DNA of 64,000 nt from Patiria pectinifera (lineage: Eukaryota > Echinodermata > Asteroidea > Valvatida > Asterinidae), in assembly GCA_029964075.1 (NCBI GenBank), contig CM057129.1, positions 10,841,430 to 10,905,429 on the forward strand, written 5' to 3'. Positions 1 through 64,000 of the stretch are shown here, one piece after another (the first letter of the stretch is position 1; each line of letters starts with the position of its first letter). Under the pieces are notes generated by a model. That model was not told the DNA's origin, ran no database searches, and worked only from the letters and a program-made list of their open reading frames with translations. Position numbers and translations under genes: made by a program.

Positions 1-303
1 CCGGGTACAAGTTTCGATCTCGAGACCGGCGCTTTCACATGTAGTGTGCCGGGCACCTACGTATTTACGTTTTCTGTTCTGAAGTATAGCAACAGCGGTT
101 ATCTTTACATCCATCTTGTTAAAAACGACTACAAGGTGATCAGTACCAATGGTCAAGCAAATCAGCGTGGTCAGTTGTCTGGTAGCGCGGTGCTGGTTCT
201 GCATCGAGGAGACACGGTGTATCTTACGATGGCCGGTAGGGTGCATAGTGGTTCCACCCATCACTGGACCTCATTCAGTGGCTTTCTCCTTTTCTCCGAA
301 TAA
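1..303 (+). CDS. C1q/collagen protein, copy 1 (3' end only)
   Basis: The window opens inside the coding exon, so only the last 100 codons are visible, open from base 1 to the TAA at 301-303. They are the C-terminal two thirds of a C1q domain: the [13 protein letters not shown] strand, a loop segment, [16 protein letters not shown] and the closing SFSGFLLF strand. The collagen stalk and signal peptide seen in the other copies must lie upstream. It ends FLLFSE like copies 4 and 5, and its 3' flank is nearly the same as that of copy 4, so those two are the closest pair here. The conserved cysteine before the VPG turn is kept. A poly(A) hexamer AATAAA overlaps the stop codon (299-304). Confidence 0.9.
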   Translation, partial: PGTSFDLETGAFTCSVPGTYVFTFSVLKYSNSGYLYIHLVKNDYKVISTNGQANQRGQLSGSAVLVLHRGDTVYLTMAGRVHSGSTHHWTSFSGFLLFSE

Positions 304-579
304 ATAAATAAATAATAAATAAAATTAAATCACAACGCACAAATATACAGGAGTAGTGCTGCAGTTTTTTTGTTTTCGCTTTCCATTTTGCCAAAAAAGT
401 AACCAATGAATTAAAAGAAAAATGTTCAATGTCATGATAATAAGAAAGATGATTGATTCTTAATACAAAGCATTTTACATTCAAGTATCTAAACTGCGTA
501 AAAACAGTTCATTAAAAAGAAGTTAAATGACTTTTGAAAAAGAAGGTTTTAGCTGCGATTGAAAAAACATTCAAATTCG

Positions 580-760
580 TTATTTTTTGCTCAAATAACG
601 TGGAATCTGCACGGTCACCGTATGCCTTGCCAGGCTTTGGACGAACTTTAGGAAGGTTGAACTGAACCCCATCACAGCTTTTAGTGCGAATGTTAAACGC
701 ATGAACTGATAAGTTTGTACCGAAGAATCTTGAATTCATTCTGCACCGTAACCGACATCC
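580..760 (-). mobile_element. LINE relic (reverse transcriptase C-terminal tail)
   Basis: On the minus strand the residues KAYGDRA are readable, preceded by FNLPKVRP. In the better preserved copy at 63170-63480 the same sequence continues in another frame as LWNRLP and RNLR. The order P-x-[T/R]...YGDRAF...LWNxLPxxLR is the usual tail of CR1/jockey-type LINE reverse transcriptases. This copy lacks the LWNRLP stretch and is not functional. Confidence 0.4.
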
Positions 761-2554
761 AACTTAGTTCCTGAATTATGGGCGTACGACCCTTCCTTCT
801 GCATATATGTTATTATTTTTAAACTGGTAATCGTATGAAAAGACATAAACCGTTACAATAGTCTGTCTGGGAAGTAACAAATGCATGTATTAAAATATAT
901 TGTTATTGTTTTTTTTTTCATTTGCATTTCGCATACCGTATACAGCCAGCGATTAAATGAAGTATGGTGATATCATTAATTTATTCATCCTCGGAAACTT
1001 TTTTTTCTTGAAAATACAAGAGTTTCAAAAAGCGCCACAGTGAACCAAGAACTCTCAACTTTTGTTAAACACTTTATTGTATCCCAGGTTAAACATGTAC
1101 AATTGAGTTTTTGTTTCATGTTAAAAGTTGAGATTTAGAGCTTTCACTTTGATGAAATTGTTTACGATTTAATGTAAGTTTAGTTGATAATGTGACACTA
1201 TATCAGAAGATTACGCAATTATGATTCTATAGTATCAATTTGATTGTAAGAATTTTTTCTCTAAGTATATATTTGAGGATGTGCTCTTGTAAGCAGCTAA
1301 ACCAATTAAAGCACAGAAATTAATCCTATTAAACATGTGATCAGTATCGAATATAAATACTCATAAACTGTGTTTGAACATTACTTTAACTGAACATTTA
1401 GCTTTAAACAATATGGAAAACCTTGTCCCACTCGTAATACATTCCGTCGAATTCCTCTCAAGAAAGTACAATTACAGAGTAAATTACAGAGTAACATTGT
1501 CGTTGAAATGAACGAGCAAATCCCAGTCTGACTTTTACAAACAAATTAATTTCTTATTAAGTACTTAAATCTGTGATTATAGATAACAATTCTAATCCCT
1601 TTGATATTACAAATTATTGCAAACAGAGTCAGTTAATGACCTGTATTTTTGTCCATATTTGTTTGTTTTGACTTGTAGATTTGGGGATCGGTGTTAATGA
1701 AAGGCCGGGTTAACATTGGTTGAGGATGGATGGGGTGGAGGATGAATGATTAGTGGTGTCGAGAGGGTTAGAAATTGAGGACGAAGGGCGGGGGAAACAA
1801 TGAATGGCACTAAGACGATGGTGTAGTCTACTTATCCCATTCACCCCACGGATTCTTAAAATGCTAAAACATGTAGACAGAACAAAATGAAAAATGAAAA
1901 ATGCTGGATGTCAGGCCCATGTATCTTTGCCCCCCCCCCTTCCCTCCCCCAACACAACCGGAAGCCCACCGACATTGTTGTTCTGCATCCGCCTGTGAAG
2001 GGCAGGGTGTTCAGGTTGGCTTGGGTTTGAAGGGTGATAGAGATATAAAGGTGGGTGCGTTTCGCAGATTAATGGGAGATGGGTGAGAATGAGAGCATTG
2101 GTGAGAGAGGCTGAATAGGGTGAAAGCTGTACGATTTCCTCACACGCTCATCTTACAAACGCCGGGTATGTTAGGGCCAGGGTCATCGCCACGTGCATGG
2201 GGGAGGTGGGTGTGCAGGGGCGGATCCAGGAATTTTTGCAGGGGGAGGGGTTCATCGGCAAAACAAATCTGACATGCAGACAGGTTTTTTTTCTCCGGAC
2301 ACTTGGCCGCCAAAAGGCGGACATTATTATTCTTACCAGTAAAACATGTTCTTCCGCAATTTTTAAATATCCGTTGGCAGATTTATTTCAGTAACAATAG
2401 CTTTGCTGTACGTTCCCATGGTGGTAAACCATGGCCCCGGATGCAAATTTTCTTTTCCTAAACTACACCCACATACATGGTTGTTTAGCGCCCTCTACGA
2501 TACTTTTATGATACGTACGCAGGTATATAATTATATTTTCCCCCACATTTCGGC

Positions 2555-2700
2555 TAGCAGTGCGATAGCTTAGTCGATAGGGTTGTGATTTTGCATTGCA
2601 AAGTTGCAGGTTCGATTCACCGTTGTTTTGTCCCCGATTATTTTTTTTCTTTTCTAACCTTTAGGCTTCAGAGGATATTTTGTTACAGGGAAATAAAGTC
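2555..2700 (+). mobile_element. tRNA-derived SINE, copy A
   Basis: An A-box-like TAGCTTAGTCG (about 2566-2577) and a B-box GGTTCGATTCA (2609-2619) lie about 40 bp apart, as in an RNA polymerase III internal promoter. A T-rich tail follows. A second copy with changes in both boxes lies at about 54770-54900 in the equivalent place of unit D, so the insertion is older than that duplication. It has no good tRNA cloverleaf and is read as a SINE head, not a tRNA gene. Confidence 0.55.
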
Positions 2701-5119: not shown

Positions 5120-5127
5120 AAGAGCAG

Positions 5128-11357: not shown

Positions 11358-13060
11358 TCCCCACTCATAGCCTAACATAACTGGAAGCACATCGACAATT
11401 TGGTTCTGTATCCGCCGTTGAGGGGCAAGGTAGGCCGTTTGGGTCTGAAGGTGGTAAAACATTAATTAGGTGTTGCGTCCTGCAGATTGATGGGAGATGG
11501 GTGAGATGGGGGGAGGTGGCCAAGCCTTGGTGAGAAAGGCTTGATAGGGTGAAAGTTGAACCCACGTCAGCTTACGGGCAGGTATGTTTGGGGCAGGGTC
11601 GTTGCCAAGTGCAGCGGTGAGGTCTGAGTACCCGATTTAGTAAACATGGTCTGCGCATTAAACAAGCGGCCAGCTCCTCATGCCAGACGGCGTAGTACGG
11701 AGGTCCTGTCCTCTTTGCCACTGGTTATAGCTGTCCCAACACCCCCACGTGATTTTTAAATATCCGATGGCAGATTTATTTCAGTTAAAATGTTATTGCT
11801 GTACGTTCCAATCGTATTCAAAATCATGGTCCCGGCCGGATGTTAAGATAGATACGATACGTCACTTCAAAGTCAGTGGCGTAACCCGGAAAGCTAGGGA
11901 GGGCGTGCCTCACCACTCAGCCTGCTTGGGATTCGGGGGAGGCGCTTAACTCTTTTGAATGCTTCTTCCAGACAATGAGGAATCTTAATTAAGGTCCTTT
12001 TAATAAACCACACCAATGAGTAATACTTTGCGACGTAATATCTCTCGAAAATACTAGGTACTCGACACTCGACACACCCGAGATAGGTACTGTCTGGAAT
12101 TGTTGGCAGTATTGTTCTGCTAGAAATCAGGCGCACTCAGTGGCACACTTAGCGATTATTTTGGACTTTCGTTAGAATATGGGCTACCGTCTTTTCAAAT
12201 TCTCTCAGTATGTATTCTTATAGGCCAGCCTATTTTAGCGGGAAAAACTGTTGGTTGTAATAGGCAGAAAATTGATGAGTGAATTACTAAAAACAGTGGC
12301 ACTCGATAGGTAATACCCAACGAAAAACAAATGTCACTACCCGACTGTTTATGTTGTAAAAATAGATTTACTCTTCCTCTTCCTGTCGACGAAACTATTA
12401 TTAGAAAGGGGAGCAACAACACTCTAGCATTAAATAAGCACCCCTTTCTCCGCCTCAGCATAATTGGTTCGGGATCCGCCGTTGGCTGCCCAGGGGTGGT
12501 TAGGAGGAGAAATGATGGTGGGGGCAGGGGCTCAATATGGGGATTCGTGCTTGGCTTGGAGATCAGGCTATTGAAGGCTAGCGTTTCCTAAGGAAAGAAG
12601 TTTGTTGCACATGGTAGGATCCAAACAGTTGGGATAAGTTTGGGATTAGGTTTGATTAGGCGAGGGTCAAGATCAGAGTTGGCATAATTATGTGTTTGGT
12701 TTTAGGTATAGGTTGGGCTCAATAAGCAGAGATGGGAGTGCCTCAATAAGCGGGCTGGGGGTTCTGCAGGTGCATGGTCGATTGCATGACGAGAAGTTGG
12801 CCGGGCCGAGCGCAAGTTTGACTAGTGGATGGGGATAGACATGGTTGTAATTAAGTTGCCTTTGGGAACGGCTGGGTTCTGCAAAATAAGTAAACTTCAT
12901 CGTAAGAGGGCGGCAACTGTACATGGACCTGATATTATGCACGCAATATATTGAAGTACTTATTACTTTTTTCTTTTCAAGCTATATTATTACGCCTTCG
13001 TTTTTCTATCAAAAATGTAGACTGCATAACCTGACTACAAAATACTAGCCACCAAATGCG
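11358..13060. repeat. Beta block middle, copy A
   Basis: Non-coding DNA repeated at about 27720-29440 (unit B), 45680-47330 (C) and 56360-58010 (D). It runs from the sequence interrupted by the 4.1-kb transposon to the promoter. Recognisable stretches include GATACGTCACTTCAAA near 11858 and a G-rich piece near 12590-12780; part of the latter is also found alone at about 39515-39670. I see no coding signal. Confidence 0.7.
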
Positions 13061-13474
13061 TGGCTCCGTTAAATAACACGAAGCGCAAAACAAACACTGA
13101 TTGAATCACGTAAGGCCGGTGTACGTCATTATTCTATCCACCAATCGGAGTTAGTCAGCCAACAAGTCGGTGACCACAAGTGAGTGGTCTGTGATTGACA
13201 AGTGCCAATCACAATTCACGTGTTTGAATGTGTCACCGACATCCATACAATCATTCCACCAATTAGATGCGTCTATTTGAGTGTCGGTGATACAAGCTTC
13301 GGGTTTAACGTGTGTCAATGTAACATTGACATCATTTCCGTCTCAAAAATATGGAGCGAGTCAGTAATGTGTGATTGACAGCGCGCAGGGGGCCAATCAC
13401 AAACCGGGCATGCAAGTTCCTCAGTCACTGCTCGGGAACTCGACGTCAATATTTAAGTCACTAGCTACCGGCTC
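13061..13474 (+). promoter_or_regulatory. Distal promoter of copy 2
   Basis: This block is conserved in four places, each 3.6-6.9 kb upstream of a C1q coding exon. It has two GTGATTGACA sites (13191-13200 and 13371-13380), the core of a PBX-MEIS (TALE homeodomain) composite site. Each is followed by an inverted CCAATCAC (13205-13212 and 13393-13400) that also reads as a CCAAT box. An inverted pair GTCACCGACA / TGTCGGTGA lies between them. TATTTAAG at 13450-13457 is a TATA-like box, and TCACTCC about 25 bp downstream is an initiator-like start. Assignment as a promoter is inferred from motif order and conservation. Confidence 0.6.
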
Positions 13475-13558
13475 ACTCCTCACAACGACCGCAGCTCATG
13501 TCCACGTCCAGACGACAACCCGAGAGAACTGTATGCAAGATTGAACAAGAATTGCACG
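13475..13558 (+). other. Leader exon 1 of copy 2 (5' UTR)
   Basis: About 84 bp from the presumed start to a strong splice donor CACG|gtgagtgt at 13559. The exon and the donor are conserved upstream of copies 3 (to 30050), 4 (to 47843) and 5 (to 58517). It holds a short upstream ATG frame beginning MSTSRRQPE. If joined to leader exon 2 that frame reaches a TGA before the main ATG, so it would be a short uORF. Confidence 0.55.
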
Positions 13559-15371
13559 GTGAGTGTTTGAAACAATCTTTTACGATAATTCTGCAAACTC
13601 TGGGATAGATCTTTTGTGATATATGATATTAACACAATGTGCTTATAGCCAAAACAGTGCGCTGCAAATATTTCCGACCACGATGATTCCATTTCCATAC
13701 GGTTATTCGATAACTTGTTATGTAATGTTGGTGCTTGAATCATAACCAGGTATTATGTTGCAGAGACTACAGCTGAATTAGCTCTTAGTCTGAACAGTTG
13801 TTGCGGATACAGACCAACATTTTGTGAGGCCAAAATCAGGCAATAATAATAGCTAAGAGCAAATAGTCTCGAGTTTTTTATTTGTTCGGAATAAAGGATT
13901 CCTGTCTGACAATATTCCAGCTGCTACTTACATAGTGCACTCTCGACGCATTTTAATTGCCCTAAATACTGAATAGTGAAACACAACACTATAAATTCCT
14001 GGAAGTTTTATAGTTTTTATTGCAATTCAGATTCGCCGGTTTTCCAGTCAAACATGGCTGTAGCTTTTGCAAGAGTGTATTACATCAAGTTCCTTATTGT
14101 TATTGAAGTTCATGCACTTTCACAATTTTGTCAGATGATAAATTTAAACCTTATCGTGTTTAACGAAAGAAATCTTGTGAAAGCTCGACCGCCCATAATA
14201 TCAGTATGATCAATCACCTCCTATATTTTCTTGCTAGTTTTCCCTGTTTATTGTCAAACCTGAAATCCCGATACGATGCGCTCACCTTTTCCCCCCGGAA
14301 ATCACTCTAGCTAATACAGGATAAAAGGTTATGTGGAAGTTGACCACGGAAAAACGTTTAAAGGAAATCGTGACATCTGAAACATCCTGTCCTATGTTGT
14401 GTTATTGAAAATTGGGATAATCTCAATACCTTTTGCGTAATGTAATGTTTTTTTTTTTTTAAACTGTATTTTTTAAACCACTTCTGTTTATGGGTGCAGG
14501 CCAGCAAATCAGTCCGAAATTGTCAAAACACGAACTGCATGCCCTCATATTCTTCAGAATTAGAGCATTTTGAAGGCTGTGAAAAAGGTTTGAAGCCGTA
14601 CAGAGGACTGCTAGCTCGTATTTCTGTGAAATGTGGATGATGATTCGGCCCTAAAATGCCTTTATTTTGCAATGGACAGTTGGCGTCCATTTTCAAAATG
14701 GCGATGGGCTTCAGGACTGCTTTTAGGGGTGATCATCTTTGATCACCTAGATGATTGAACCCCAGAAAATTGAACAGAAAATGAAGGATGATGAAATAAT
14801 CTTTAATTTGATGTACGTCTTGAACAGTCCTCAAAATGTTATGTGTATTTTACCTGAATTTCTGAAGTGGGGACATAAAACTTTTAACATTGGGGTCGAT
14901 TGGAATATATTACTGGTCTGCAACGATAGGTCTAAGCGTTACTTTCAAGCGTTGCAGGATAAAAGTGTCAATTGTCAGAATATACTTTAGGGCGCAACGA
15001 ATAAATCGGATCATGATCACACACGTTTTATTCATGTTTAAATTGCCCCCGTACATGCAAACAAAACAGAAACAGGAGGAAAAAAGGGATAAAAAGAAAA
15101 AGAAGAAAGAGGTGCGAATATCATATTTGTGTTAATTTAATTGGTTGTGGTGCAAATGTCCCTAGGCACCCTCAAAAAATTATCAATCGGGAAAATGATA
15201 TTGGGGGGGGGGTGTGCTTTGTCCTCCTCTACACAAACAAAAATCCTGGCGACGCCCATGCCTGTCTACATTTGTAGAATCTTGTTAAGAGTTGAGGTTT
15301 GCACAAATTATTCGAGCGTCAATTTAGATTTTGCATCTTTCCTTAAAAAACAAACACTTTCTTGTCCTATT
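13559..15371. other. Leader intron of copy 2, first part
   Basis: Intron-like, AT-rich sequence whose copies lie at about 30051-31080, 47844-49640 and 58518-60120. Landmarks are CAAAACAGTGCG near 13649 and a GATTCGCCGGTTTTCCAGTC stretch near 14031. Polypurine and G runs occur near 15070-15210. No coding signal. Confidence 0.55.
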
Positions 15372-16918
15372 ACACTCAGACACGAATACATGTACAATCA
15401 AAACATCATTAACCAATATATTGGATTTGCCGCAGCCTGAATGTGTTTATTAAATCTTCATGCCAAATCAAAGCATGTTTTGTTTTCCGTTTCACCATAC
15501 GCACCACCAACATACATAGACGGCCAGATACCAGTCTTTCATTGCTGAAATCCTTTGGGCAAACTGGCTCTTACAAACCATTGGGTTGATCAGGCCCACC
15601 GAACCTGGGGTACATAACCGGGCCCCCACTCCGGATCCACTTTAAACCTTACCTGGGGTAATAACGGTCACCCACTCCGAAAACCACCTGTGGTATATCC
15701 ACGCCCCTTCCAAATTGTTCCGAAATTGATAGGACACTTGTAAAAACTTTTAAAGTAATTTCCTTAATTGAAACACAAAGTTCGCTGGCATAAATAACTG
15801 GAATGCTTCGCGGTCGGAACCGACTTCGTGGAAGCAAACCCTAGCCGGCACAGGCTGGGTTATTGTTGTAAAAGTTTGGAATTAAACAATTATAAATCAA
15901 TGTCAGCACATTTCACTGGACAGGCTCAGCGACCCTGGAATATGGCTTGCCGAACCCTGTCCCACGACCACAGTCGGCGCCACCCGCGCACTAGGGCGCA
16001 GCCCAAGGGACGAAGGACAGCCACCCCAAAGCGAGCAGTCCAGGGAAATGAAAATGTAGTCATATTTAATAATACAAACTACGCAAAACACCATTTATGC
16101 AAGACTGCAGGTTGTCTCTAAATAACTGAGTACCTTCCGGGGACAAATGAACCCCATCAAAGGGGAAAAGCTGAGAAGGACACGACTCAAATTGATGATG
16201 ATGTAAAATGTACGCATTCAATCTGTAAGCCATAGCCCTGGCCCATTTATTCAATGTGAGTCGTTTTTTATTGATACTGGCATTGGACTGTGCGCCTTAA
16301 TAAAAGAGCCTTGGTAGAATATCGGACCAAACCAGGCAGACAGATGGATAACGAGTCCTGAACTCTTCCATGAGTAACCTAATACGCTGGCGCATACAAA
16401 AATAATCAATGGAAACAAGGTCATTAGTACCTAGGTGCATTATTACGACCGTAGGAGCCATGCCATGAGCCATAGCGTCAAGGCGACGTAACAATGGCAG
16501 CAAATTGCCTATCCCTACCCCACCTTTTCCCATCCAGTGTATTTGTGCCTCGCAATCCATGTTCTTCTGAGCTCTGCGAATAATAGAATCACCCACGATC
16601 CATACTGTACCTGTACATAGTGATAAAATTGAAATAGACATTTTCGCGGCATGACCATGCAGTTACTCCAGGAAAATGACACTGCGGGATTGTTGTACAT
16701 GTATAGGTGTTAACCGCATCCGAACGCTAACGACCGATATTTTGAAATTGCAGTAAGGGGCCCTGAAAGTTGGGGTCGTAATGCAATAAACTTGTGCAAT
16801 GCCCGCACGGGACAGATACAAGAAATCTGTAGTTGGGTCTGGAAATTATTTACTTTGGAAAATAGCCCACAACTGACTGATAAGTTGCTATAGTAGAAGA
16901 GACTAGACCCAGTAATGA
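15372..16918 (-). mobile_element. Ngaro-related fragment (older, incomplete)
   Basis: Read on the minus strand, it carries a small piece like a tyrosine recombinase (CPVRALHKF, near 16800). This is followed by an SGNH-hydrolase-like region (about 16640-16070) with the landmarks GDSI, GTND and DGVHLSPEG, then about 700 bp of non-coding tail. That order matches the 3' half of Ngaro elements. Unit C lacks it at the corresponding place (about 49640-49800), which shows insertion. It is broken, without its 5' half, and clearly older than, and a different lineage from, the element at 19322-26160. The tail (15372-15975) is shared with the fragment at 40534-41521. Confidence 0.6.
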
Positions 16919-18360: not shown

Positions 18361-19197
18361 ATGAAGATCTGCGTGGCCACCATTCTGTCAATCGCCCTCC
18401 TTCTGGGTAACTCTGTTAAGCTCCGAGCTTCCGTTACTGGGCCGGTTCCCTCGGATGGCGATGGTCCTGCGACTCAGGTGTGTCAGCAGTGCTGCCAGGG
18501 ACCTGCTGCAATACCCGGCATACCAGGTCTGCCTGGGCCAGTAGGACCGATGGGGCCGCACGGTCAGCCGGGGTCAAAGGGCGATGCTGGTCAGCAAGGT
18601 GACATTGGCCCTATTGGACCTATGGGTGAGCGGGGAGCACCTGGGAACACTGGGTCTAAAGGTGATGATGGGATTGGTCTGCCCGGCAAGATAGGTCCGA
18701 GAGGGCTACCTGGTTTTGTTGGAGGAACTGGGGAAACTGGTGTCAAAGGTCAGAAGGGCGAGCCAGGGGAGACACCAGAAGACTCCAAACAGCGGGTGGC
18801 ATTCACCGTGGTGAGGACAAGCAGCTCGGATACCTCTACGAGTCACGACACCCGTTTGCCCTTCCAGCAGACCGAGACGCTTCTGCCAGGTACCATCTTC
18901 GATCTCGAGACCGGCACGTTCACCTGTAGTGTGCCGGGCACCTACGTATTTACGTTCTCTGTTCTTAAGCATAGCAACAGCGATTACCTTCACGTCCATC
19001 TTGGTAAAAACGACTACAAGGTGATCACTACCCATGGTATATCAAATCAACGAGGTCAGTTTTCTGGAAGCGCAGTGCTGGTTCTGCAGCGTGGAGACAC
19101 GGTGTATGTTACCATGCGCGGTAGGGCGTTTAGTAGTCCCACCAGTCACTACACCTCATTCAGTGGCTTCCTCCTTTACCCGGAATCATTTAATTAA
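18361..19197 (+). CDS. Secreted collagen-like C1q-domain protein, copy 2
   Basis: 278 residues, intact. Residues 1-23 form a signal peptide ([18 protein letters not shown]). A cysteine cluster VCQQCC (40-45) probably makes inter-chain disulfides. The collagen stalk runs 53-138: 17 Gly-X-Y triplets, a two-residue break GI (104-105), then 11 triplets. Two residues before the stalk, GPAAIP has Ala where a Gly would extend the repeat. The C1q domain is 145-275 with [16 protein letters not shown] (Cys189), [13 protein letters not shown] and SFSGFLLY. The start is the ATG right after the acceptor TTTCCTTTCAG. An in-frame upstream ATG-less extension exists but is intron-like. By family (C1q, CTRP, other sC1q proteins) it should form trimers or higher oligomers and bind ligands outside the cell; the ligand is unknown. 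Confidence 0.93.
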
Positions 19198-19321
19198 TTA
19201 ACTAATCTTCACCTCGCATAAATATGCAAGAGCAGTGCCCCCCCCCCCAAAAAAAAAAAAAAAATTTCGCTTTCCATTTTGCCGATACAATAACCAATAA
19301 TTAAATATAAATTAAATACGC
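19198..19321. other. 3' flank of copy 2 (short remnant)
   Basis: Only about 120 bp of the usual 3' flank remain, ending at the Ngaro element. It includes a C run followed by an A run (about 19239-19264). The next approximately 4 kb of alpha block found after copy 1 is missing here. Confidence 0.6.
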
Positions 19322-19839
19322 ATGTTTTAATCAACCTTCTTCAACCGGAATACCAAAGATTAAGGGCAAACCGGATACATAGAGCACATTAACATTAACA
19401 TTAAACATTAGGAGGTACCCATGACCACCTCACGTAGTTTGATGCTCACAAGAAAACTGATTGTGATACCCAAGACCACAATGACGATAGTGATACCCAG
19501 TGACCACTACCCACCAACAACGGCCGTTGTGAAAGCCTGTTAAATCAAGCGATGAAACCAGTTAACAGGTAAGGTGCTATAACTTCAGCACTTAATTAAA
19601 AACACATTCCCCACAGCAGGCACATGTAGTGGGGGTATAGCCATTGTGGTAAATCATAGGCTATACATGTACATGTAGATTCGAGATTAACATGTTACTG
19701 GATCAGCCCATGAGGCACATCACGGGCCACAATGAATTTAGTTACCAAGTTGAATTTAGTTAAGTACACTGTAGTCAAATGTTCACTCAAAACCAGCATT
19801 ATGGGGCTCGTTCTCTTCTGGGGCACCAATAAAAATGCC
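19322..19839. repeat. Ngaro repeat B2
   Basis: 518-bp direct repeat, outermost at the element's 3' end, near-identical to B1 at 20358-20875. The shared part starts ATGTTTTAATCAACC and ends AATAAAAATGCC on the + strand. Confidence 0.9.
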
Positions 19840-19937
19840 CAGAAATAACCACTGTTGTGCCCCAAACAATAGTGCTGTACTAAATACAGAATATCCCCCT
19901 CTCTTCCACCATGGAGGAATGTAGGGGAGGAGGTGGG

Positions 19938-20294
19938 AAAAGTTTTCAATCGAGCGTTGATGTTTCTAGATTGAAGCCGTGACTAAAAGTGAATCCGCGC
20001 ACTCCCGATAGAAAACAATGCGCTGATTGGCTGCCGCGCAATCCTAGCGCGGCAAAATAAAGGGAGAGTGCATACAACGTCCGCAATGAAGTTTGCGCAC
20101 GTCCCGCAAGCGATGTTCTGCTTTTATTGGTTGCCCAGGGGTGTTCAGAATCCCAATTTGCATACAACCTTCCTTAATCAGGATACTCATGCACACTGTA
20201 TGCTGTACAATTATTGAACTCCCACAAGTACGACCAAATTGGATTTTGCGCTGAGTATAATAAATTTTACCAGTTATATGGTAAAATGTGTTAT
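19938..20294. repeat. Ngaro repeat A2
   Basis: 357-bp direct repeat matching A1 at 25804-26160, lying between B1 and B2. The B1-A2-B2 order at the 3' end and A1 alone at the 5' end is the diagnostic Ngaro/DIRS-order arrangement. Confidence 0.9.
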
Positions 20295-20357
20295 ACTCAT
20301 ACTACAAAAAGGAATCACGCAGGAGAAAAGTTTGTTGTGTCTCTCGCCACAGCTTCA

Positions 20358-20875
20358 ATGTTTTAATCAACCTTCTTCAACCGGAATACCAAAGATTAAG
20401 GGCAAACCGGATACATAGAGCACATTAACATTAACATTAAACATTAGGAGGTACCCATGACCACCTCACGTAGTTTGATGCTCACAAGAAAACTGATTGT
20501 GATACCCAAGACCACAATGACGATAGTGATACCCAGTGACCACTACCCACCAACAACGGCCGTTGTGAAAGCCTGTTAAATCAAGCGATAAAACCAGTTA
20601 ACAGGTAAGGTGCTATAACTTCAGCACTTAATTAAAAACACATTCCCCACAGCAGGCACATGTAGTGGGGGTATAGCCATTGTGGTAAATCATAGGCTAT
20701 ACATGTACATGTAGATTCGAGATTAACATGTTACTGGATCAGCCCATGAGGCACATCACGGGCCACAATGAATTTAGTTACCAAGTTGAATTTAGTTAAG
20801 TACACTGTAGTCAAATGTTCACTCCAAACCAGCATTATGGGGCTCGTTCTCTTCTGGGGCACCAATAAAAATGCC
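20358..20875. repeat. Ngaro repeat B1
   Basis: Inner copy of the 518-bp repeat, directly downstream (in element sense) of the SGNH hydrolase part. Confidence 0.9.
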
Positions 20876-20924
20876 AAACGCGAAAAGCGACCACATAAGA
20901 AACAAGCACCATCACTGCGGGAAC

Positions 20925-21416
20925 TTACATTAGCGACAAAAAGCAGGAGCGCAAATTTTCTCGAAAGGCTGCATTACCCTCCGGAGAGAGGTGAACCCCA
21001 TCTCTCCGGTAGAGGTGAGCGGCAGACCAATGAAATTGGGGGTGATCAAGTACACTGATTCCCAGCCTGCGACATTGTGACCTAGCCCAGCGGTTAGTCG
21101 CTCGCCGTATGTGTTCCATGGATTTTTGGGATTGGGCACCATAGTAAAATAGCCGGGGTAATATACATGACCAAACAAGGTTGGTGTTAGGAAATCTCTC
21201 CCGACATTCTGCCAGCATGAAGGCTAGAGTATGCCGAATCGCATAGAAGTTGAGCTGCACTAAGTCATTAGTACCAACATGCATTACTATAATGTCAACA
21301 TCACCAATGCCGTCCAACAAATATGCTAATTGATTCAAGCGTGCTCCACTTCGCCCATTCCATTGCACAGGGATACCCATATCATATGCTGCCCATCGAA
21401 CCAGTGAATCCCCCAC
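20925..21416 (-). mobile_element. Ngaro part: SGNH/GDSL hydrolase
   Basis: A 163-residue frame with the SGNH blocks: GDSLV near the start, MHVGTNDLV in the middle, and DGVHLSPEG near the end carrying the D-x-H pair. This hydrolase is a known accessory gene of Ngaro elements; its role in their cycle is not settled. Its conservation next to the recombinase part supports the family call. A diverged homologue is in the fragment at 15372-16918. Confidence 0.8.
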
Positions 21417-21458
21417 TATCCCAGCACAGCGTTGCTCATGTGGATGAACACCTACAAA

Positions 21459-22400: not shown

Positions 22401-22428
22401 ACTTGGGGAAGAATTGGAAGCAGAGTCA

Positions 22429-23950: not shown

Positions 23951-23953
23951 AAT

Positions 23954-25726: not shown

Positions 25727-25803
25727 GTCCTTGTCCTTGCAGACTCCTCACGCGCCAATTGCTTGTAATTCAAATTCTAATTAAACCCGAAATTCGGGTG
25801 TAA

Positions 25804-26160
25804 AAAAGTTTTCAATCGAGCGTTGATGTTTCTAGATTGAAGCCGTGACTAAAAGTGAATCTGCGCACTCCCGATAGAAAACAATGCGCTGATTGGCTGC
25901 TGCGCAATCCTAGCGCGGCAAAATAAAGGGAGAGTGCATACAACGTCCGCAATGAAGTTTGCGCACGTCCCGCAAGCGATGTTCTGTTTTTATTGGTTGC
26001 CCAGGGGCGTTCAGAATCCCAATTTCCATACAACCTTCCTTAATCAGGATACTCATGCACACTGTATGCTGTACAATTATTGAACTCCCACAAGTACGAT
26101 CAAATTGGATTTTGCGCTGATTATAATAAATTTTACCAGTTATATGGTAAAATGTGTTAT
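25804..26160. repeat. Ngaro repeat A1 (5' end)
   Basis: 357-bp repeat at the element's 5' end, matching A2. The element ends ...ATGTGTTAT, and host sequence TGGTTAAACTCTCTCGCG resumes directly, in register with 4452 of unit A. Confidence 0.9.
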
Positions 26161-36936: not shown

Positions 36937-37764
36937 ATGAAGATCAGCGTGGCCACCATTCTGTCAATCGCCCTCCTTCTGGGTAACTCTGTCAAGCTCC
37001 GAGCTTCCGTTACTGGGCCGGTTCCCTCGGACGGTGATGGTCCTGCGTCTCAGGTGTGTCAGCAGTGCTGCCAGGGACCTGCTGCAATACCCGGCATACC
37101 AGGTCTGCCTGGGCCAGGAGGACCGATGGGGCCGTACGGTCAGCCGGGGTCAAAGGGCGATGCAGGTCAGCAAGGTGAGATTGGCCCTATTGGGCCTATG
37201 GGTGATCGGGGAGCACCTGGGAACACTGGGTCTAAAGGTGATGATGGGATTGGCCTGCCTGGCAAAATAGGTCCCAGAGGTATACCTGGTATCGTTGGAA
37301 GACTCGGAGAAACTGGTGTCAAAGGTCAGAAGGGTGAGCAAGGGGAGACACCAGACGATTCCAACCAGCGGGTAGCATTCACCGCGGCGAGGACGAGCAC
37401 CTCGGATACCTCTACGAGTCACGACACCCGTTTGCCCTTCCAGCACACCGAGACGCTTCTGCCGGGTACCAGTTTCGATCCCGAGACCGGCACGTTCACA
37501 GGTAGTGTGCCGGGCACCTACGTATTTACATTTTCTGTTCTTAAGTATAGCAACAGCGGTGAACTTTACATTAATCTTGTTAAAAACAATGACAAGGTGA
37601 TTTCCACCTATGGTGCAGCAAATCAACGTGGTCAGTTGTCTGGTAGCGCGGTGCTGATTCTCCAGCGTGGAGACACGGTGTATCTTACCATGTACGGTAG
37701 GGCGAATGGTGGTAACTACACCTCATTCAGCGGCTTCCTCCTTTTCCCGGAGTCAATTAATTAA
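36937..37764 (+). CDS. Secreted collagen-like C1q-domain protein, copy 3
   Basis: 275 residues, intact. The layout is as in copy 2: signal peptide 1-23 (Cys4 is Ser here), VCQQCC cluster, a stalk with the same 17+GI+11 triplet pattern, then the C1q domain. Two points are odd. The conserved Cys189 before the VPG turn is Gly (FTGSVPG). The C-terminal loop is three residues shorter (GRANGGNYTSF). It ends FPESIN, closer to copy 2 than to copies 1, 4 and 5. The start is the ATG directly after the acceptor TTTCTTTACAG. Its upstream region lacks leader exon 2 and the X-box, so its transcription may differ from that of the other copies. Confidence 0.93.
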   Translation: MKISVATILSIALLLGNSVKLRASVTGPVPSDGDGPASQVCQQCCQGPAAIPGIPGLPGPGGPMGPYGQPGSKGDAGQQGEIGPIGPMGDRGAPGNTGSKGDDGIGLPGKIGPRGIPGIVGRLGETGVKGQKGEQGETPDDSNQRVAFTAARTSTSDTSTSHDTRLPFQHTETLLPGTSFDPETGTFTGSVPGTYVFTFSVLKYSNSGELYINLVKNNDKVISTYGAANQRGQLSGSAVLILQRGDTVYLTMYGRANGGNYTSFSGFLLFPESIN

Positions 37765-45544: not shown

Positions 45545-47330
45545 AAAATGCTTGTATACTTTAGTCAGGAAAAATAATGAGGGAAAAATGAAACGCATTC
45601 CACACGCCTATCGATTTTGTAACGGCCAGCTTGCCGGGTATCAGGCCCTTTTGCCTGCCCCCTTCCCCTCCACTCACAGCCTGACATAACTGGAAGCACA
45701 TCGACAATTTGGTTCTGTATCCGCCGTTGAGGGGCAGGGTGTTCAGGCCGTTTGGGTCTGAAAGTTATAAGACATTATTTAGGTGATTGCGTCTCGCAGA
45801 TTGATGGGAAATGGTGAGATGAAGTTGGGAGTGGCAAAGCCTTGGTGAGAGAGGCTGGATAGGTAAAAGTTGAACCCACGTCAGCTTACGGGCAGGTATG
45901 ATAGGGGCAGGGTCGTTGCCAAGTGCAGCGGTGAGGTCTGAGTACCCGATTTAGTAAACATGGTCTGCGCATTAAACAGGCGGCCAGCTCCTAATGCCAG
46001 ACGGCGTAGTACAGACGTCTTGTCCCCTTTGCCACTGGTTATAGCTGTCCCAACACCCCCCCCCCCCGATATTTTCAAATATCCGATGGCAGATTTATTT
46101 CAGTTAAAATATTATTGCTGTACGTTCCCATCGTGGTCAAACTCATAGTCCCGGCTGGATGATGAAAAACGATACGTCACTTCAAACTCAGTGGCGTAAC
46201 CCGGCAAGCTAGAGAGGGCGTGCCTCACCACTCAGCCTGCCTGGGATTCGGGGGAGGCGCTAAACTCTTTGAATGCTTCCTCCAGAAAATGAGGAGTCTT
46301 AATTAAGGTCCCTTTAATGAACCACGCCAATGAGTAATACTTGGCAGCGTAATATCTCTCGAAAATACTAGGTTTGAAAACGAAACACCCTGGATAGGTA
46401 TAGGAATAGATACTGTTTGGAATTGTGGGCAGTATTGTTCTGCTGGAAATCAGGGGCACACTTTGTGATTATTTTGGACTTTTGGTAGACTATGGGCCAC
46501 CGTATTTTCAAATTTTCTCAGTAGGTATTCTTATAGTCCGGTCTATTTTAGCACGGAAAACTGTTAGTTGTCATCAGCAGAAAATTGATGAGTGAATAAC
46601 TAAAAACCGTGGCACTCGATGGGTTACCCAACGAAAACAACTGTCACGACTCGACTGTTAATGCTGTAAAAATAGATTTACTCTTCCTCTTCCTGTCGAC
46701 GAAACTATTAATAGAAAGGGGAACAACAACACTCTAGCATTAAATAAGCAGCCCTTTCTCCTGGCTGCCCAGGCTTGTTAGGAGGGGGAAGGGATGGTGG
46801 GGGCAGGGGTTCAATATGGGGATTCGTACTTAGCTTGGAGATCAGGCTATTGAAGGCTAGTGTTTCCTAAGGAAAGAAGTTTGTTGCACATGGTTGGATC
46901 AAAACAGTTGGGTAAGTTTGGGATTAGGTTTGATTAGGCGAGGGTCAAGATCGGAGTTGGAGTAATCATGTGTTTGGTATTAGGTATAGTTTGGGCTCAA
47001 TAAGCGGATGTGGGAGGGCCTCAATTAGCGAGGAGGGGGTTCTGCAGGTGCAAGGTCGGTTGCATGCCGAGAAGTTGCAGAGCCGAGCGCACGTTTGACT
47101 AGTGGATGGGGATAGAAGAATGGTTGTGATTATAAAAAAAAGTTGCCTTTGGGAACGGCTGGGTTCTGCAAAATAAGTATACTACACCGTAAGAGGGCGG
47201 CAACTGTACAGGGACCTGATATAATGCACACAGTATATTGAAGTTCTTATTACTTTTTACTTTCAAGCTAAATGATTACGCCTTCGTTTTTCTATCAAAA
47301 ATGTAGACTGCATGACCTGACTACACAATA
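45545..47330. repeat. Beta block middle, copy C
   Basis: Matches 11358-13060 and 27600-29440. No coding signal. It has a C run near 46055. Confidence 0.7.
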
Positions 47331-47759
47331 CTAGCCACCAAATGCGTGGCTCCATTAAATAACACGAAGCGCAAAACAAACACTGATTGAATCATGTATG
47401 GCCGGTGCACGTCATTATTCTATCCACCAATCAGAGTTAGTCAGCCAACAAGTCGGTGACCACAAGTGAGTGGTCTGTGATTGACTGGTGCCAATCACAA
47501 TCCACGTGTTTGATTGGGTCACCGACATCCATACAATCATTCCACCAATTAGATGCGTCTATTTGAGTGTCGGTGATACAAGCTTCGGGTTTAACGTGTG
47601 GCAATGTAACATTAACATCATTTCCGTCTCACAAATGTGGAGCGAGTCAGTGATGTGTGATTGACAGCGCGCAGGGGCCAATCACAAACCGGGCTTGCAA
47701 GTTCCTCAGTCACCGCTCGGGAAATCGACGTCAATATTTAAGTCACAAGCTGCCGGCTC
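47331..47759 (+). promoter_or_regulatory. Distal promoter of copy 4
   Basis: Same module as upstream of copy 2: GTGATTGAC with inverted CCAATCAC (about 47476-47499), a second pair at about 47657-47686, and TATTTAAG at 47735-47742. It is intact although the gene it serves is broken. Confidence 0.55.
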
Positions 47760-47843
47760 ACTCCTCACAACGACCGCAGCTCATGTCCACGTCCAGACGA
47801 CAACCCGAGAGAACTGTTTGCAAGATCGAACCAGAATTGCACG
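47760..47843 (+). other. Leader exon 1 of copy 4 (5' UTR)
   Basis: Conserved exon ending CACG|gtgagtgt, almost identical to the copy 2 exon. Confidence 0.5.
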
Positions 47844-50106
47844 GTGAGTGTTTGAAACAGTCTTTGACGATAATTCTGCAAACTTTGGGACAGATCTTTT
47901 GTGATATATGATATTGACACAATGTGCTTATAGCCAAAACAGTGCGTTGTAAATATTTCCGACCATGATGATCCCATTTCCATACGGTTATTCGATAACT
48001 TATTATGCGATATTGGTGCTTGAATCATAAGCAGGTATTATGATGCATAGACTACAGCTGAATTAGCTCTAGTCTGAAAAGTTGATGCGGATTCAGACCA
48101 AAATTTTGTGAGGCCAAAATCAGGCAATAATATAGCTAAGAGCAAATACATGTATATAGTCACGATTTTTTTTGTTTGTTTGGGATTCCTGTCTGACAAT
48201 ACTTCAGCTCCTACTTACATAGTGCACCCTCGACGCATTTTAATTGCCCTAAATACTGAATAGTGAAAAACAACACTATAAATTCCTGGAAGTTTTATAG
48301 TTTGTATTGCCATTCAGATTCGACGGTTTTCCAGTCAAACATGGCTGTAGGTTTTTCAAGAGTGTATTACATCAAGTTCCTTATTGTTATTGAAGTTCAT
48401 GCACTTTCACAATTTTGTCAGATGATAAATTTAAACCTTTTCGTGTTTAACGAAAGAAATCTTGCGAAAGCTCGACCGCCCATAATATTAGTATGATCAA
48501 TCACCTCCTTTATTTACTCGCTAGTTTTCCCTATTTATTGTCAAACCTGAAATCCAGATGCGATGCGCTCACCTTTTTCCCCCGGAAATCACTCTAGCTA
48601 ATACAGGATAACAGGAAATTGGCTACGGAAAAACGTTTAAAGGAAATCGGGACATCTGAAACATCCTGTCTTATGTTGTGTTATGGAAAATTGGAATAAT
48701 CTCAATACCTTTTGCGTAATGTGTTTTTTAAACTGTGTCTTTAAACCATTTCTGTTTATGGGTGCAGGCCAGCAAATCAGGCCGAAATTGCCTTCGCCGG
48801 CAAAATCACGAACTGCATGCCCTCAAATTCTTCAGAATTAGAGCATTTTGAAGGCCGTGAACTTGATTTAGAAAAAAAAGGTTAGAAGCCGTGCAGAGGA
48901 CTGCGAGCTCGTATTTCTGTAAAATGTGGATAATGATTCGGCCCTTATGGCTCTATTTTGCAGTGGAGCGTAGGCGTATATTTTCAAAATGGCGATTGGC
49001 TTCAGGCCTTTTTTTAGCGGTGATCATCTTTGATCACCTAGATGATTGAACCCCAGAAAACTGAACAGAAAATTCAAAAAGATGATGAAATAATCTTTAA
49101 TTTGATGTGTGTTTCACCTGAACTCTTGAAGTGGGGACATAAACCTTTAACATTGGGGTCTATTGAAATGCATTACTGGTCTGCAACGATAGGTCTAAGC
49201 GTTACTTTCAAGCGTTGCAGGATAAAAGTGTCATTTTTGTCAGAATAGACTTGAGGGCGCAACGAACAAATTGGATCATGATCACACACATTTTATTTAT
49301 GTTTAAATTGCCCCCTGGGCATGCAAACAAAACAGAAACAGGAGAAAAAAAGGGATAAAAAGAAAAAGAAGAAGGAGGTGCGAATATCATATTGTTGTTA
49401 ATTTAATTGGTTGGGTGCAAATGTTCCTGGACACCCTCAAAAAATTATCAATCGGAAAAATGATATTTGCGGTGGGGGGGGGGGGTGTGCTTTGTCCTCC
49501 TCTACACAAAAAAAAATCCAGGCGACGCCTACGGCTGGATGCATTTGTAGAAATCATGTTAAAAGATGAGGTTTGCACAAATTATTTGAGCGTCAATTTA
49601 GATTTTGCATCTTCACTTTATAAAAAGCAGATTTCTTGTCCTAATTTTACCAGGTTCATCATATTGGTTAATGACGAAACACGCACGAGTTTTTTTTCTT
49701 TCATGTTTACGTGAATACCATCAGTTTCGTAAAAGAAACCAAAAAAAAATAAGAGAACGAAAAGAACTAAAAATGAGATATGCATGCAGACTAGAAAAAA
49801 ATTAACCAATTATCGTGTAAGCGATAAAAAAAGACATTTGATTGATTTTGAGTATCTTTTTAATTATCTTTTTATTTCCACACAGTGATTTCAACAAATT
49901 ACAAACTGGTTAATATGGTCTAAATATTAAATATATTTGCGCAATAAACCTCATTTTGGGCAGGTGCTCAAAATGTCATTCTTTCTATAATCTAGCCACC
50001 GAACAATGTTCCTGTCATGTTTCCTTCCCTGACAATCAAAACAAAAGTGTGTAAATTGCTTCATGAAATTTTATCAAAAGTCATGTCGTTTTATCATTTG
50101 TTTTAA

Positions 50107-51828: not shown

Positions 51829-52634
51829 ATGAAGAACTGCGTGGCCACCATTCTGTCAATCGCCCTCCTTCTGGGTAACTCTGTCAAGCTCCGAGCTTCC
51901 GTTACTGGGCCGGTTCCCTCGGACGGTGATGCTGCCAGGGACCTGCTGCAATACCCGGCATACCAGGTCTGCCTGGTCCAGTAGGACCGATGGGGCCGTA
52001 CGGTCAGCCGGGGTCAAAGGGCGATGCAGGTCAGCAAGGTGAGATTGGCCCTAATGGACCTATGGGTGAGCGGGGAGCACCTGGGAACACTGGGTCTAAA
52101 GGTGACGATGGGATTGGTCTGCCCGGAAAGATAGGTCCGAGAGGCCCACCGGGTCTTGTTGGAGCAGCCGGTCAGGCTGGTGTCAAAGGTCAGAAAGGTG
52201 AGCCAGGGGAGACACCAGACGACTCCAACCAGCGGGTGGCATTCACTGTGGTGAGGACGAGCAGCTCGGATACCTCTACGAGTGACGACACCCGTTTGCT
52301 CTTCCAGCAGACCGAAACCCTTCTGCCGGGTACCAACTTCGATCTCGAGACCGGCACGTTCACATGTAGTGTGCCGGGCACCTACGTATTTACGTTCTCT
52401 GTTCTTAAGTATGGCAACAGCGGTAGCCTTACCATCAATCTTGTAAAAAACAACTACAAGGTGATCACTACCTATGATACATCAAATCAACAAGGTCAGT
52501 TGTCTGGTAGCGCAGTGCTGGTCCTGCAGCGAGGAGACACGGTGTATCTTACAATGGCAATGGCTGGTAGGGTGCATAGTGATTCCATCTATCACTGGAC
52601 CTCATTCAGTGGCTTTCTCCTTTTCTCCGAATAA
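51829..52634 (+). pseudogene. C1q/collagen gene copy 4, frameshifted
   Basis: The signal peptide ([15 protein letters not shown]) and the following 30 or so residues are readable. Then 28 bp present in copies 2, 3 and 5 are missing (after about 51930, between GGTGATG and CTGCCAGGG). The frame changes and stops at 51982-51984. The lost bases encode the VCQQC part of the cysteine cluster. Downstream the stalk and C1q domain are open from 51990 to 52634, with Cys kept and a 6-bp tandem duplication giving MAMAGRV. The long open downstream frame and the close match to copy 1 say the deletion is recent. A shorter protein from an internal ATG would lack a signal peptide. Confidence 0.88.
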
Positions 52635-52909
52635 ATAAATAAATAATAAATAAAATTCAATCACAACTCATAAATATACAGGAGTAGTGCTGCATTTTTT
52701 GGTTTCGCTTTCCATTTTGCCAAAACAGTAACCAATGAATTAAAAGAAAAATGTTCAATGTCATGATAATAAGAAAGATAATTGATTCTTAATACAAAGC
52801 ATTTTACATTCAAGTATCAAAACTGCGTAAAAACAGTTCATTAAAAAGAAGTTAAATGACTTTTGAAAAAGAAGGTTTTAGCTGCGATTGAAAAAACATT
52901 CAAATTCGT

Positions 52910-61855: not shown

Positions 61856-61869
61856 GTTGCCGTGGAAAC
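61856..61869 (+). promoter_or_regulatory. Degenerate X-box upstream of copy 5
   Basis: GTTGCCGTGGAAAC, two changes from the perfect palindrome of copy 4, followed by GATTAAAAAA. Confidence 0.3.
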
Positions 61870-62098
61870 CGATTAAAAAACACCTTTTCATATAATGTTA
61901 GCCCCTTGCCCCCGGATAGGCCACTGTCATCACGCCGAACACATTCTCTGAATAATGATTCCTCCAAAATTATTATGAAGTCACACGTGTCTCTAAGACA
62001 ACCTCTTCAGTGTATGTAACATCATAATGCCTATTTCTTATTGCTTATTGACTTTGTTTTTAGTGCTATATATAGGCTCTGTGTTGTTTACTTTACAG

Positions 62099-62935
62099 AT
62101 GAAGATCTGTGTTGCGTTCATTCTGTCAATCGCCCTCCTTCTTGGTAACTCTGTCAAGCTCCGAGCTTCCGTTACTGGGCCGGTTCCCTCGGACGGTGAT
62201 GGTCCTGCGTCTCAGGTGTGTAAGCAGTGCTGCCAGGGACCTGCTGCAACACCCGGCATACCAGGTCTGCCTGGACCAGCAGGACCGATGGGGCCGTACG
62301 GTCAGCCGGGGTCAAAGGGCGATGCAGGTCAGCAAGGTCAAAAAGGTGATATTGGACAAATTGGACCAATGGGTGAGCGGGGAGCACCTGGGAACACTGG
62401 GTCTAAAGGTGATGATGGGATTGGTCTGCCCGGAAAGATAGGTCCGAGAGGCCCACCTGGTCCTGTTGGAGCAATCGGTCAGGTTGGTGTCAAAGGTCAG
62501 AAGGGTGAGCCAGGGGAGACACCAGACGACTCCAACCAGCGAGTGGCATTCACCGTGGTGAGGACGAGCCACTCGGATACCTCTACGAGTCACGACACCC
62601 GTTTGCCCTTCCAGCAGACCGAGACGCTTCTGCCGGGTACCAGTTTCGATCTCGAGACCGGTACGTTCACCTGTGGCGTGTCGGGTACCTACGTGTTTAC
62701 GTTTTCTGTCCTTGAGTATGGCAACACCGGTAGGCTTGACATCCATCTGGTTAAAAACAACTACCATGTGATCAGTACCCATAGTACATCAAATCACCGT
62801 GGTCAGGTATCTGGGAGTGCGGTGCTGGTTCTGCAGCGAGGAGACACGGTGTATCTTACCGTGTACGGTCGAGCGTATGGTTCTTCGACCTATCACTACA
62901 CCTCATTCAGCGGCTTCCTCCTTTTCTCCGAATAA
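62099..62935 (+). CDS. Secreted collagen-like C1q-domain protein, copy 5
   Basis: 278 residues, intact. Signal peptide [15 protein letters not shown]; cluster VCKQCC. The stalk has one extra triplet (GQK, in [10 protein letters not shown]), giving 18+GI+11. In the C1q domain Cys192 is kept in [13 protein letters not shown], but the VPG turn is VSG. Loop residues differ strongly from the other copies ([38 protein letters not shown]). It ends FLLFSE with AATAAA overlapping the stop. The start is the ATG after the acceptor TTTACTTTACAG. An in-frame ATG at 62027 would add 24 hydrophobic residues, but this lies in sequence I read as intron. Confidence 0.93.
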
Positions 62936-64000
62936 ATAAATAATCACATTGCATGAATTTACAGGAGCAGTGCTGCAAGTATTTGTTACGCTTTCAATTT
63001 TGCCAAAACATTAACCAATGAAATAAAAGAAGAAAAAAAGTTCAATGTCATCATAAGAAAGATAATCGACTCTTAATACATGTATAAATAAAAGTATCAA
63101 CACTACATAAAGAAACAGTATATTAAAGATAAGTTTAAAATATAACTTTTTAAAATAATTGTTTTTAGTTGCGGTGAAATACCCCTCCAAATTCATTATT
63201 TTTTCTCAAATTACGTGGAAGTCTGTTCCACAGATGCATAGATGGTAAAAGCACGGTCACCGTATGCCTTGCCAGGCGTTGGTACGAACTTTAGGAAGGT
63301 TGAACTTAACCCCGTCACAGCTTTTAGTGCAAATGTTACACGCAATGATAGTTGCTTTATGAGGTACTGCAGTGCTGACTCGCCAGGGCGGATAATTTTG
63401 AAAGTAACACAGAATCTTGACTTCAATCCGCCCGGTAACCGAGAGCCAATGTTGTTCCTGAAGTATGGGTGTCATGTCTGCATGATGACCCTTCCTTCTG
63501 AATATATGTTGTGATTTCTTAAACTGGTAATCTTATGAAAACAAAGTAAACTGTTACAATAATCTGTCTGGGAAGAAACATTTACATGTATTAACAAAAT
63601 AATGTGGTTTTTTTTTCATTTGCATTGCGCATACCGTATACAGCAATAGATCAAATGAAATCGGGTGATATCATTTATTTATCCTCCGAAAGATTTTTGT
63701 GCTTCTTCTTCAAAAAAACCCAAGAGTTCCAATTGCACCACAGTGAACCAAGAACTCTCCACTTTCGTTAAACAGTTTATTTTGTATCCCACGGTATACA
63801 TGTGTAATTTGGTTTTTGTTTTACGTTGGAAGTTGAGTTTTAGAGCTTTCACTATGATGAAATTGTTTACGATTTAATGGAATTTGAGTTTATAATGTGA
63901 CACTATAATCAGCAAATTACGCAGTTATGTTTCTATGATTATATGTGATTAAAGAAACGTTTTTTCAAGTATACATTTGAGGATATTGCTCTGTTTAACA
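62936..64000. repeat. Alpha block, copy E (3' flank of copy 5)
   Basis: Matches the start of the 3' flank of copies 1 and 4 (for example CAGGAGCAGTGCTGC near 62962 and TTTCACTATGATGAAATTG near 63845). It runs off the window end, so the array very likely continues to the right. Confidence 0.65.
63170..63480 (-). mobile_element. LINE relic, unit E (best preserved)
   Basis: Minus strand: FVPTPGKAYGDRAFTIYAS in one frame, then LWNRLPRNLRK in another. This is the classic C-terminal tail of CR1/jockey-type LINE reverse transcriptases. A frameshift separates the two halves, and nothing of the catalytic domain is present. Confidence 0.5.

Follow-up and report, generated by a model that had tools for sequence, protein, structure and literature searches.

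How can the genes of one tandem array keep the stalks of their proteins nearly constant and let the heads vary? This question is raised by a stretch of 64,000 nucleotides from the starfish Patiria pectinifera (C1:10841430-10905429, within a 613.5-Mb genome; hereafter the window), which holds five related genes for proteins with a collagen stalk and a C1q head. A reading made from the letters alone (the original prediction) had proposed that the array is a diversifying set of soluble recognition proteins. Our analysis leads us to regard these genes, with some reserve, as probable germline-encoded and tandemly amplified C1q-like defence collagens, in which the stalk is homogenised, the loops of the head are under selection and signalling would go through the shared stalk. 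The diversifying character of the array was borne out site by site: eight head sites showed an excess of replacements at a posterior above 0.99, and no site in 12 null simulations did. That the products are soluble and recognise ligands is suggested by what is known of the family.

Gene copies in the window and their architecture

All five genes with YVFTFSVL heads that had been described are present in the window, the quoted loops included. Their heads lie on the plus strand at 58-321, 18943-19206, 37519-37782, 52383-52646 and 62690-62953. Three of the copies are intact, one is cut by the edge of the window and one is frameshifted:

1..300, plus strand: copy 1, C-terminal part of the C1q head; the gene starts upstream of the window
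18361..19194, plus strand: copy 2, intact, 278 amino acids; signal-peptide-like start, cysteine cluster, collagen and C1q head
36937..37761, plus strand: copy 3, intact, 275 amino acids, from sequence and Pfam
51829..52631, plus strand: copy 4, frameshifted by a 28-nucleotide loss near codon 36, with two parts in different frames
62099..62932, plus strand: copy 5, intact, 278 amino acids; reference for residue numbers

Residue and codon numbers are those of copy 5 throughout, and the codon analyses used the alignment columns that are present in copy 5. The full gene of copy 1 (locus L009) is intact in the genome at C1:10840905-10841729. Copy 4 is a probable pseudogene, and in Pfam the part of it that is open from 51930 on matches both collagen and C1q.

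The Pfam scan covered copies 2-5, and all four matched C1q (PF00386, 80-89 bits against a cut-off of 23.7) and, N-terminal to the head, collagen (PF01391, 48-54 bits against a cut-off of 27.2). The order of domains is a signal-peptide-like start, a Cys-x-x-Cys-Cys cluster, Gly-X-Y collagen and a C1q jelly-roll head. The start is hydrophobic and, judged by eye, signal-peptide-like; the products are probably secreted. The collagen is about 22-29 Gly-X-Y triplets long with one Gly-X-Gly break (eight copies counted). The ATG of copy 2 sits immediately 3' of an acceptor-like CAG, and an acceptor-like AG stands directly or one base before the ATG in the 66 copies inspected. Therefore, the coding sequence is probably a single exon behind an intron, the acceptor pointing to an upstream exon. 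Homologous blocks recur between copies in the window (for example 11361-15369 against 45670-49643, 87.9% identity), which indicates duplication of whole units, and in the window a word of 26 bases from the 5' block described below is found four times where 0.00 occurrences are expected.

Family size and sequence sets

A search of the genome with a window protein gave 139 scored loci among 482 candidates (142 rows, with three loci in two pieces). By a hand count from the table of scored loci, the reading frame stays open across almost the entire protein in about 131 of the 139, and the remaining eight start late or have a stop. A 23-base word of the signal peptide was found at 198 genomic places with at most two mismatches, compared with none for the reversed control. 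The family has well over a hundred copies in this genome. Most scored loci are on C1, from its first kilobase to 11.7 Mb, and near paralogues are arranged as tandem clusters. Blocks of one strand alternate near the window (9.98-10.18 Mb minus, 10.29-10.90 plus, 10.99-11.08 minus and 11.37-11.44 plus). A search for the C1q family as such gave 150 scored among 292 candidates and placed C1q domains also on C2, C4, C6, C10, C11, C14, C20 and C22. Thioester-domain matches of the C3/TEP/A2M type number 30 in the same genome. Two broken loci, L068 (C1:10116110-10116742) and L069 (C1:10295118-10295750), lie on opposite strands and have an out-of-frame 5' part in common; therefore, the broken copy itself appears to have been duplicated or spread by conversion.

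We collected 77 sequences, namely the 72 loci L009-L080, L003 and four window copies. Eight of them, which were broken or had no start that could be read, were excluded (L003, L028, L043, L048, L067, L068, L069 and copy 4). The 69 intact coding sequences that were analysed come from part of the 139 scored loci, chiefly those with the highest scores. The main set comprised the 36 copies closest to the genes of the window (the intact ones of L009-L043 and copies 2, 3 and 5), and results below refer to it unless another number is given. A second set of 22 copies (the intact ones among L044-L066) was used for the comparison of clades. The ordering of loci behind both sets roughly follows the genome-search score.

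A homogeneous 5' part that both clades have in common

The signal peptide and stalk had been described as nearly constant. They are constant, but that description proved incomplete, as their silent sites are constant too and their variants are common to the clades. The block concerned is, in copy 5:

62126..62398, plus strand: homogeneous 5' block, codons about 10-100, with low silent divergence common to both clades

Third-position divergence in codons 1-100 was 0.07-0.11, against a p-distance of 0.13-0.24 in the 600 bp upstream, and divergence in the 600 bases downstream was 0.18-0.31. In 58 copies the same codons stood at 0.11-0.18 against 0.32-0.45 upstream. Between the two clades, of 36 and 22 copies, divergence was 0.30 at codons 5-8 and had fallen to 0.04 by codons 17-20. 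The fixation index (Fst) between the clades at four-fold sites was 0.53 in codons 1-12 (95% -0.05 to 0.72), 0.094 in codons 13-100 (95% 0.046-0.143), 0.18 in codons 101-140 and 0.35 in the head (95% 0.214-0.467); computed from p-distance in the upstream region, it came to 0.32-0.43. The difference between head and codons 13-100 was zero or less in 0 of 2000 bootstraps. On the 5' tree the clade changed 10 times, compared with 2 on the head tree. The agreement of distance matrices between segments was below that of column shuffles (for the whole gene and for the stalk none of 300 shuffles reached so low a value, and for the head 2 of 300 did), and the pairwise homoplasy index (PHI) supported recombination in the whole gene (1/500) and in the head (2/500). 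These results suggest ectopic gene conversion on top of purifying selection, because constraint alone would lower variation and would not mix the clades.

Three results weigh against conversion. PHI was weak for the stalk (30/500), and in all 69 copies it was reversed for the whole gene and the head (500/500), perhaps from rate variation along the gene. In the approximately unbiased (AU) test on the 5' block, with a comparison group of 32 copies from which L070 was excluded, a single clade was not rejected (p = 0.12). Stalk constancy could then come from selection at the protein or RNA level alone, through codon or splicing constraint. The AU and stalk PHI results count in favour of this explanation, as do the many collagen sites with a purifying posterior above 0.9 (of 93 sites, 50 with all 69 copies and 24 with the main set) and the scarcity of even silent variation in codons 10-26 of the 16 copies displayed. 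However, selection of this kind should preserve at silent sites the clade structure seen in the head, whereas Fst drops from 0.35 to 0.094 and the 5' tree mixes the clades. We therefore consider selection without conversion unlikely.

In codons 10-26 nearly all bases agree among the 16 displayed copies, silent ones included. They agree even in L049, L050, L056, L066 and L071, which have diverged strongly in the intron and in codons 1-9, and L077 (C14) and L080 (C1:2.0 Mb) show a few differences there. The left edge of the block is sharp at about codon 10, and the conversion model gives no reason for a stop at that point.

A stalk break followed by a docking-type motif

PGKxGP-type sequences are a published docking motif for complement proteases (PMC2592599, PMC5902488). 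The latter source places the docking site in each of the three chains of C1q and describes the lysine of this site as critical for ficolin A (PMC5902488). A break in the Gly-X-Y repeat is described as bending the stalk in peptides of mannose-binding lectin (MBL) (PMC9898670). In copy 5 both features stand together:

62417..62446, plus strand: Gly-Ile-Gly break and PGKIGP motif, residues 107-116; motif as in PMC2592599 and PMC5902488

Each of the eight copies parsed has one collagen break, which is Gly-Ile-Gly in six, and in most copies Leu-Pro-Gly-Lys-Ile/Val-Gly-Pro follows immediately. PGKxGP was found in 64 of the 69 copies, with an aliphatic x in 60, and a Gly-X-Gly break leading directly into Pro-Gly-Lys-(aliphatic)-Gly-Pro in 58. 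Of the 67 copies that have this column, 66 retain Lys113, both lysine codons are used, and the posterior for purifying selection at this site was 1.0. Shuffling of the triplets tempers this picture in part: for seven of the eight copies PGK(aliphatic)GP alone arose in about 5-7% of shuffles, and for the eighth, L063, where x is lysine, in none, so the motif without the break is modest evidence. Break and motif together arose in 0.15-0.5%. We infer from this stretch of the stalk that it may dock a protease like the MBL-associated serine proteases (MASP-like).

The motif also bears on whether these are defence proteins at all. C1q-like collagens could instead be structural or developmental (shell, egg coat, mucus, gamete or allorecognition), with loops that vary by reproductive or self-recognition conflict. 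C1q-like proteins do include matrix and signalling proteins (cerebellin, caprin-2 and collagens VIII and X in the Protein Data Bank, PDB), and gamete and allorecognition proteins show rapid loop evolution too. Nevertheless, a break followed by PGK[IV]GP matches the stalk of defence collagens, and in the number of its copies and the pattern of selection the family matches the C1q arrays of oysters, which are read as immune (PMC6835236). We give a structural or developmental role little probability and proceed with defence collagens.

Positive selection at sites in the head loops

Changes had been said to cluster in the segments after YVFTFSVL and in the final loop. This clustering was recovered, as the nonsynonymous/synonymous ratio reached 1.88 in loop windows compared with 0.10-0.66 in residues 1-144. 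The ratio was 1.88 in residues 157-168, 0.91 in 205-216, 0.57 in 229-240 and 1.33 in 253-264; of the 12 windows in residues 1-144, eight had 0.10-0.39 and four 0.40-0.66. A ratio above 1 at the loops thus held at single sites and failed for two of the loop windows (0.91 and 0.57), so the replacement excess is a property of particular sites rather than of each whole loop. The four variable loops, in copy 5, are:

62570..62611, plus strand: AA' loop, residues 158-171; selected sites 158 and 161 (36 copies) and 165 (local trees; also in the analysis of all 69 copies)
62717..62734, plus strand: CD loop, residues 207-212; selected site 212, with selected site 214 just outside
62783..62803, plus strand: EF loop, residues 229-235; selected sites 230 and 231
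62864..62899, plus strand: GH loop, residues 256-267; selected sites 256, 260, 262 and 265 (both analyses) and 267 (single-tree analysis only)

Selection at single sites was assessed with a custom-written grid model of the FUBAR type (fast, unconstrained Bayesian approximation), and a site was called selected at a posterior above 0.9 for a nonsynonymous rate (beta) greater than the synonymous rate (alpha). The results showed 12 selected sites among 135 in the head, eight of them above 0.99, and 1 among 140 in the signal peptide and stalk; replacements are not spread evenly over stalk and head. All 69 copies gave 20/135 and 1/140, the single stalk site being residue 37 in the 36 copies and residue 125 in the 69. 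AA', CD, EF and GH together contain 10 of the 12 selected head sites (16 of the 20 in all 69), and BC, DE and FG contain none of the 12. When the analysis was repeated with separate trees for six segments, as a guard against recombination, 10/135 head sites and 1/140 stalk sites remained; nine of the 10 were in the four loops, and BC, DE and FG had 0 of 13 positions. The 12 simulations without positive selection yielded 0-5 sites above 0.9 compared with 12 observed, and none above 0.99 compared with eight.

The proportions of nonsynonymous and synonymous differences (pN/pS) were 0.137/0.140 in AA', 0.202/0.276 in CD, 0.230/0.186 in EF and 0.251/0.147 in GH. Elsewhere in the head they were 0.041/0.096 in BC, 0.101/0.232 in DE, 0.016/0.191 in FG and 0.056/0.192 in the framework. 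By domain, silent divergence was 0.088 in the signal peptide, 0.166 in the collagen and 0.210 in the head, and replacement divergence was 0.039, 0.051 and 0.109 in the same order.

Some observations count against a purely loop-focused selection. Silent divergence itself differs between head and stalk, and therefore part of the clustering seen by eye is not selection. Selected sites 214 and 253 (the latter a conservative L/V change) lie outside the loop limits, as do 214, 223, 226 and 228 in all 69 copies, with 223 adjoining DE. The loop limits were taken from modelled strands, widened by a few residues, and set after the selected sites had been seen, so the Fisher p of 5e-5 for loop enrichment is optimistic. 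That redundant copies simply decay under relaxed constraint is improbable: change is tolerated in the loops of any fold, eight of the 77 collected sequences are broken or have no start that could be read and two loop windows have ratios below 1, but relaxed constraint predicts beta rising up to alpha and not above it as at the eight sites beyond 0.99, about 131 of 139 loci are open, and BC, DE and FG carry no selected site in the 36 copies.

Glycan shielding of the heads was considered and dropped because N-glycosylation sequons are rare in them (0 in 57 of the 69 copies). L051 and L059 have the same head protein from about residue 192 on and a different AA' region, which is likely to mark a recent conversion breakpoint inside the head.

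Predicted geometry of the head

An AlphaFold2 model of the copy-5 head, made with five window sequences, had a predicted local distance difference test score (pLDDT) of 73.2 and a predicted template-modelling score (pTM) of 0.72; model residues 19-29, within the AA' loop, had a pLDDT below 50. The modelled strand order fits C1q, with nine strands of at least three residues. Among the best 50 Foldseek rows all were C1q-family heads, the best PDB matches had E of about 1e-10, and PDB relatives include cerebellin, caprin-2 and collagens VIII and X. In C1q heads both chain ends are at the stalk side. From this and the strand order, CD, EF and GH are predicted at the pole opposite the stalk, and BC, DE and FG near the stalk; this placement rests on strand order and a single-head model, and AA' is outside the argument. 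The predicted positions agree with the loops in which change was and was not observed.

Other elements in the array and elsewhere

A tyrosine-recombinase retrotransposon, presumably Ngaro/PAT-like, lies inside the array on the minus strand (window 19322-26160). Its split direct repeats and open reading frames (ORFs) follow the order A1 - ORFs - B1 A2 B2, and the A pair is 98.0% and the B pair 99.6% identical; judged by these repeats, it appears to be a young insertion. The ORFs encode a 597-amino-acid product without a Pfam match, gag-like by position, a reverse transcriptase, a recombinase region (two pieces, one stop) and a GDSL/SGNH hydrolase. A 121-amino-acid GDSL/SGNH fragment at 16297-16662 on the minus strand, with a Pfam match below the cut-off, is probably a relic of a similar element. 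The Pfam scan of 10 further ORFs within the array units gave nothing beyond this weak GDSL fragment, and in the window neither tRNA genes nor Rfam matches at gathering score were found. Two-copy tandem repeats stand between genes at 29477-29699 and 34377-34704, with units of 112 and 164 bases that are 95% alike. Elsewhere in the genome, L081 (C7:13017885-13019549, minus strand) is RAG1-like, in two adjoining open pieces of 262 and 329 amino acids parted by one stop; the longer piece matches amphioxus RAG1L (6b40) at 294 bits compared with 154 bits for vertebrate RAG1, which points to an invertebrate and, judged by the score, probably to one other than Branchiostoma. COX1 gave no match in this assembly but did in 8 of 14 controls, presumably because the mitochondrion is not included, and a GFP-family search gave no match here or in any control genome.

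Comparison with known systems

The closest known case is the C1q arrays of oysters. Crassostrea virginica has 476 C1q-domain-containing genes, and bivalve clusters, like the array here, combine huge tandem expansion and recent duplicates with positive selection at few sites (4-11 head sites per oyster cluster) and purifying selection on most of the rest (PMC6835236). They differ in two respects. The types given for C. virginica are coiled-coil, head-only, multi-head and SUEL, with no collagen type, whereas here a collagen stalk carries a break and a docking motif; and the three-dimensional meaning of the oyster sites is left open there, whereas the selected sites here are mostly tied to four loops (PMC6835236). 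The term 'gene conversion' is absent from the oyster paper (PMC6835236).

C1q, MBL and ficolins resemble the present proteins in their collagen stalk with a bend or, in MBL, a Gly-X-Gly-type break, and C1q in the fold of its head (PMC2592599, PMC5902488, PMC9898670). Three chains make up the single heterotrimer of vertebrate C1q, whereas here there are well over 100 similar chains with variable head loops and predicted docking. N-terminal cysteines are a further likeness to these defence collagens, C1q among them. Collagen-type C1q-like proteins of echinoderms, hemichordates, amphioxus, annelids and some bivalves have the same order of signal peptide, collagen and C1q (PMC11312191, PMC10672478); therefore, the domain order itself is not new. 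In the available text of these sources they are encoded by single or few genes per species, and no array with constant stalk and variable loops is described (PMC11312191, PMC10672478). C1q-domain-containing genes number 59 in Acanthaster planci, 14 in sea urchin and 6 in sea cucumber, likewise expansions in non-chordate deuterostomes but far fewer than here (PMC6409975). No description of a homogenised stalk with variable heads was found among the titles and beginnings of abstracts listed in the literature searches, with subscription journals outside this coverage. The sea urchin Sp185/333 genes are, like this array, a large germline family with diversified products, but their protein is unrelated and has neither C1q head nor collagen.

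Proposed explanation and significance

In the explanation we favour, copies would arise by duplication of units of 10-19 kb, probably through unequal exchange. Ectopic gene conversion, to which the silent sites point, would keep signal peptide and stalk alike across clades and would also shuffle short tracts elsewhere in the gene, and positive selection would change a few residues, mostly in AA', CD, EF and GH. The putative trimers would most likely bind varied surface ligands via these loops, and one common stalk would signal by docking a MASP-like protease, as its motif suggests, which would give the family an immune role. A more far-reaching version, which we hold as tentative and rather doubtful, is an antibody-like germline system: well over 100 genes with selected and shuffled loops would share one effector through a complement-docking stalk homogenised by conversion that fades toward the head.

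Tandem C1q arrays under diversifying selection and C1q proteins of the collagen type were already known, and what sets this family apart is the combination of a constant stalk bearing a docking motif with variation focused on loops. With variable sites mostly in alternate loops and a constant effector-docking motif, an invertebrate repertoire coupled to complement becomes testable. Moreover, silent-site homogeneity that begins inside an exon makes this family a clear system for how conversion and diversification divide one gene.

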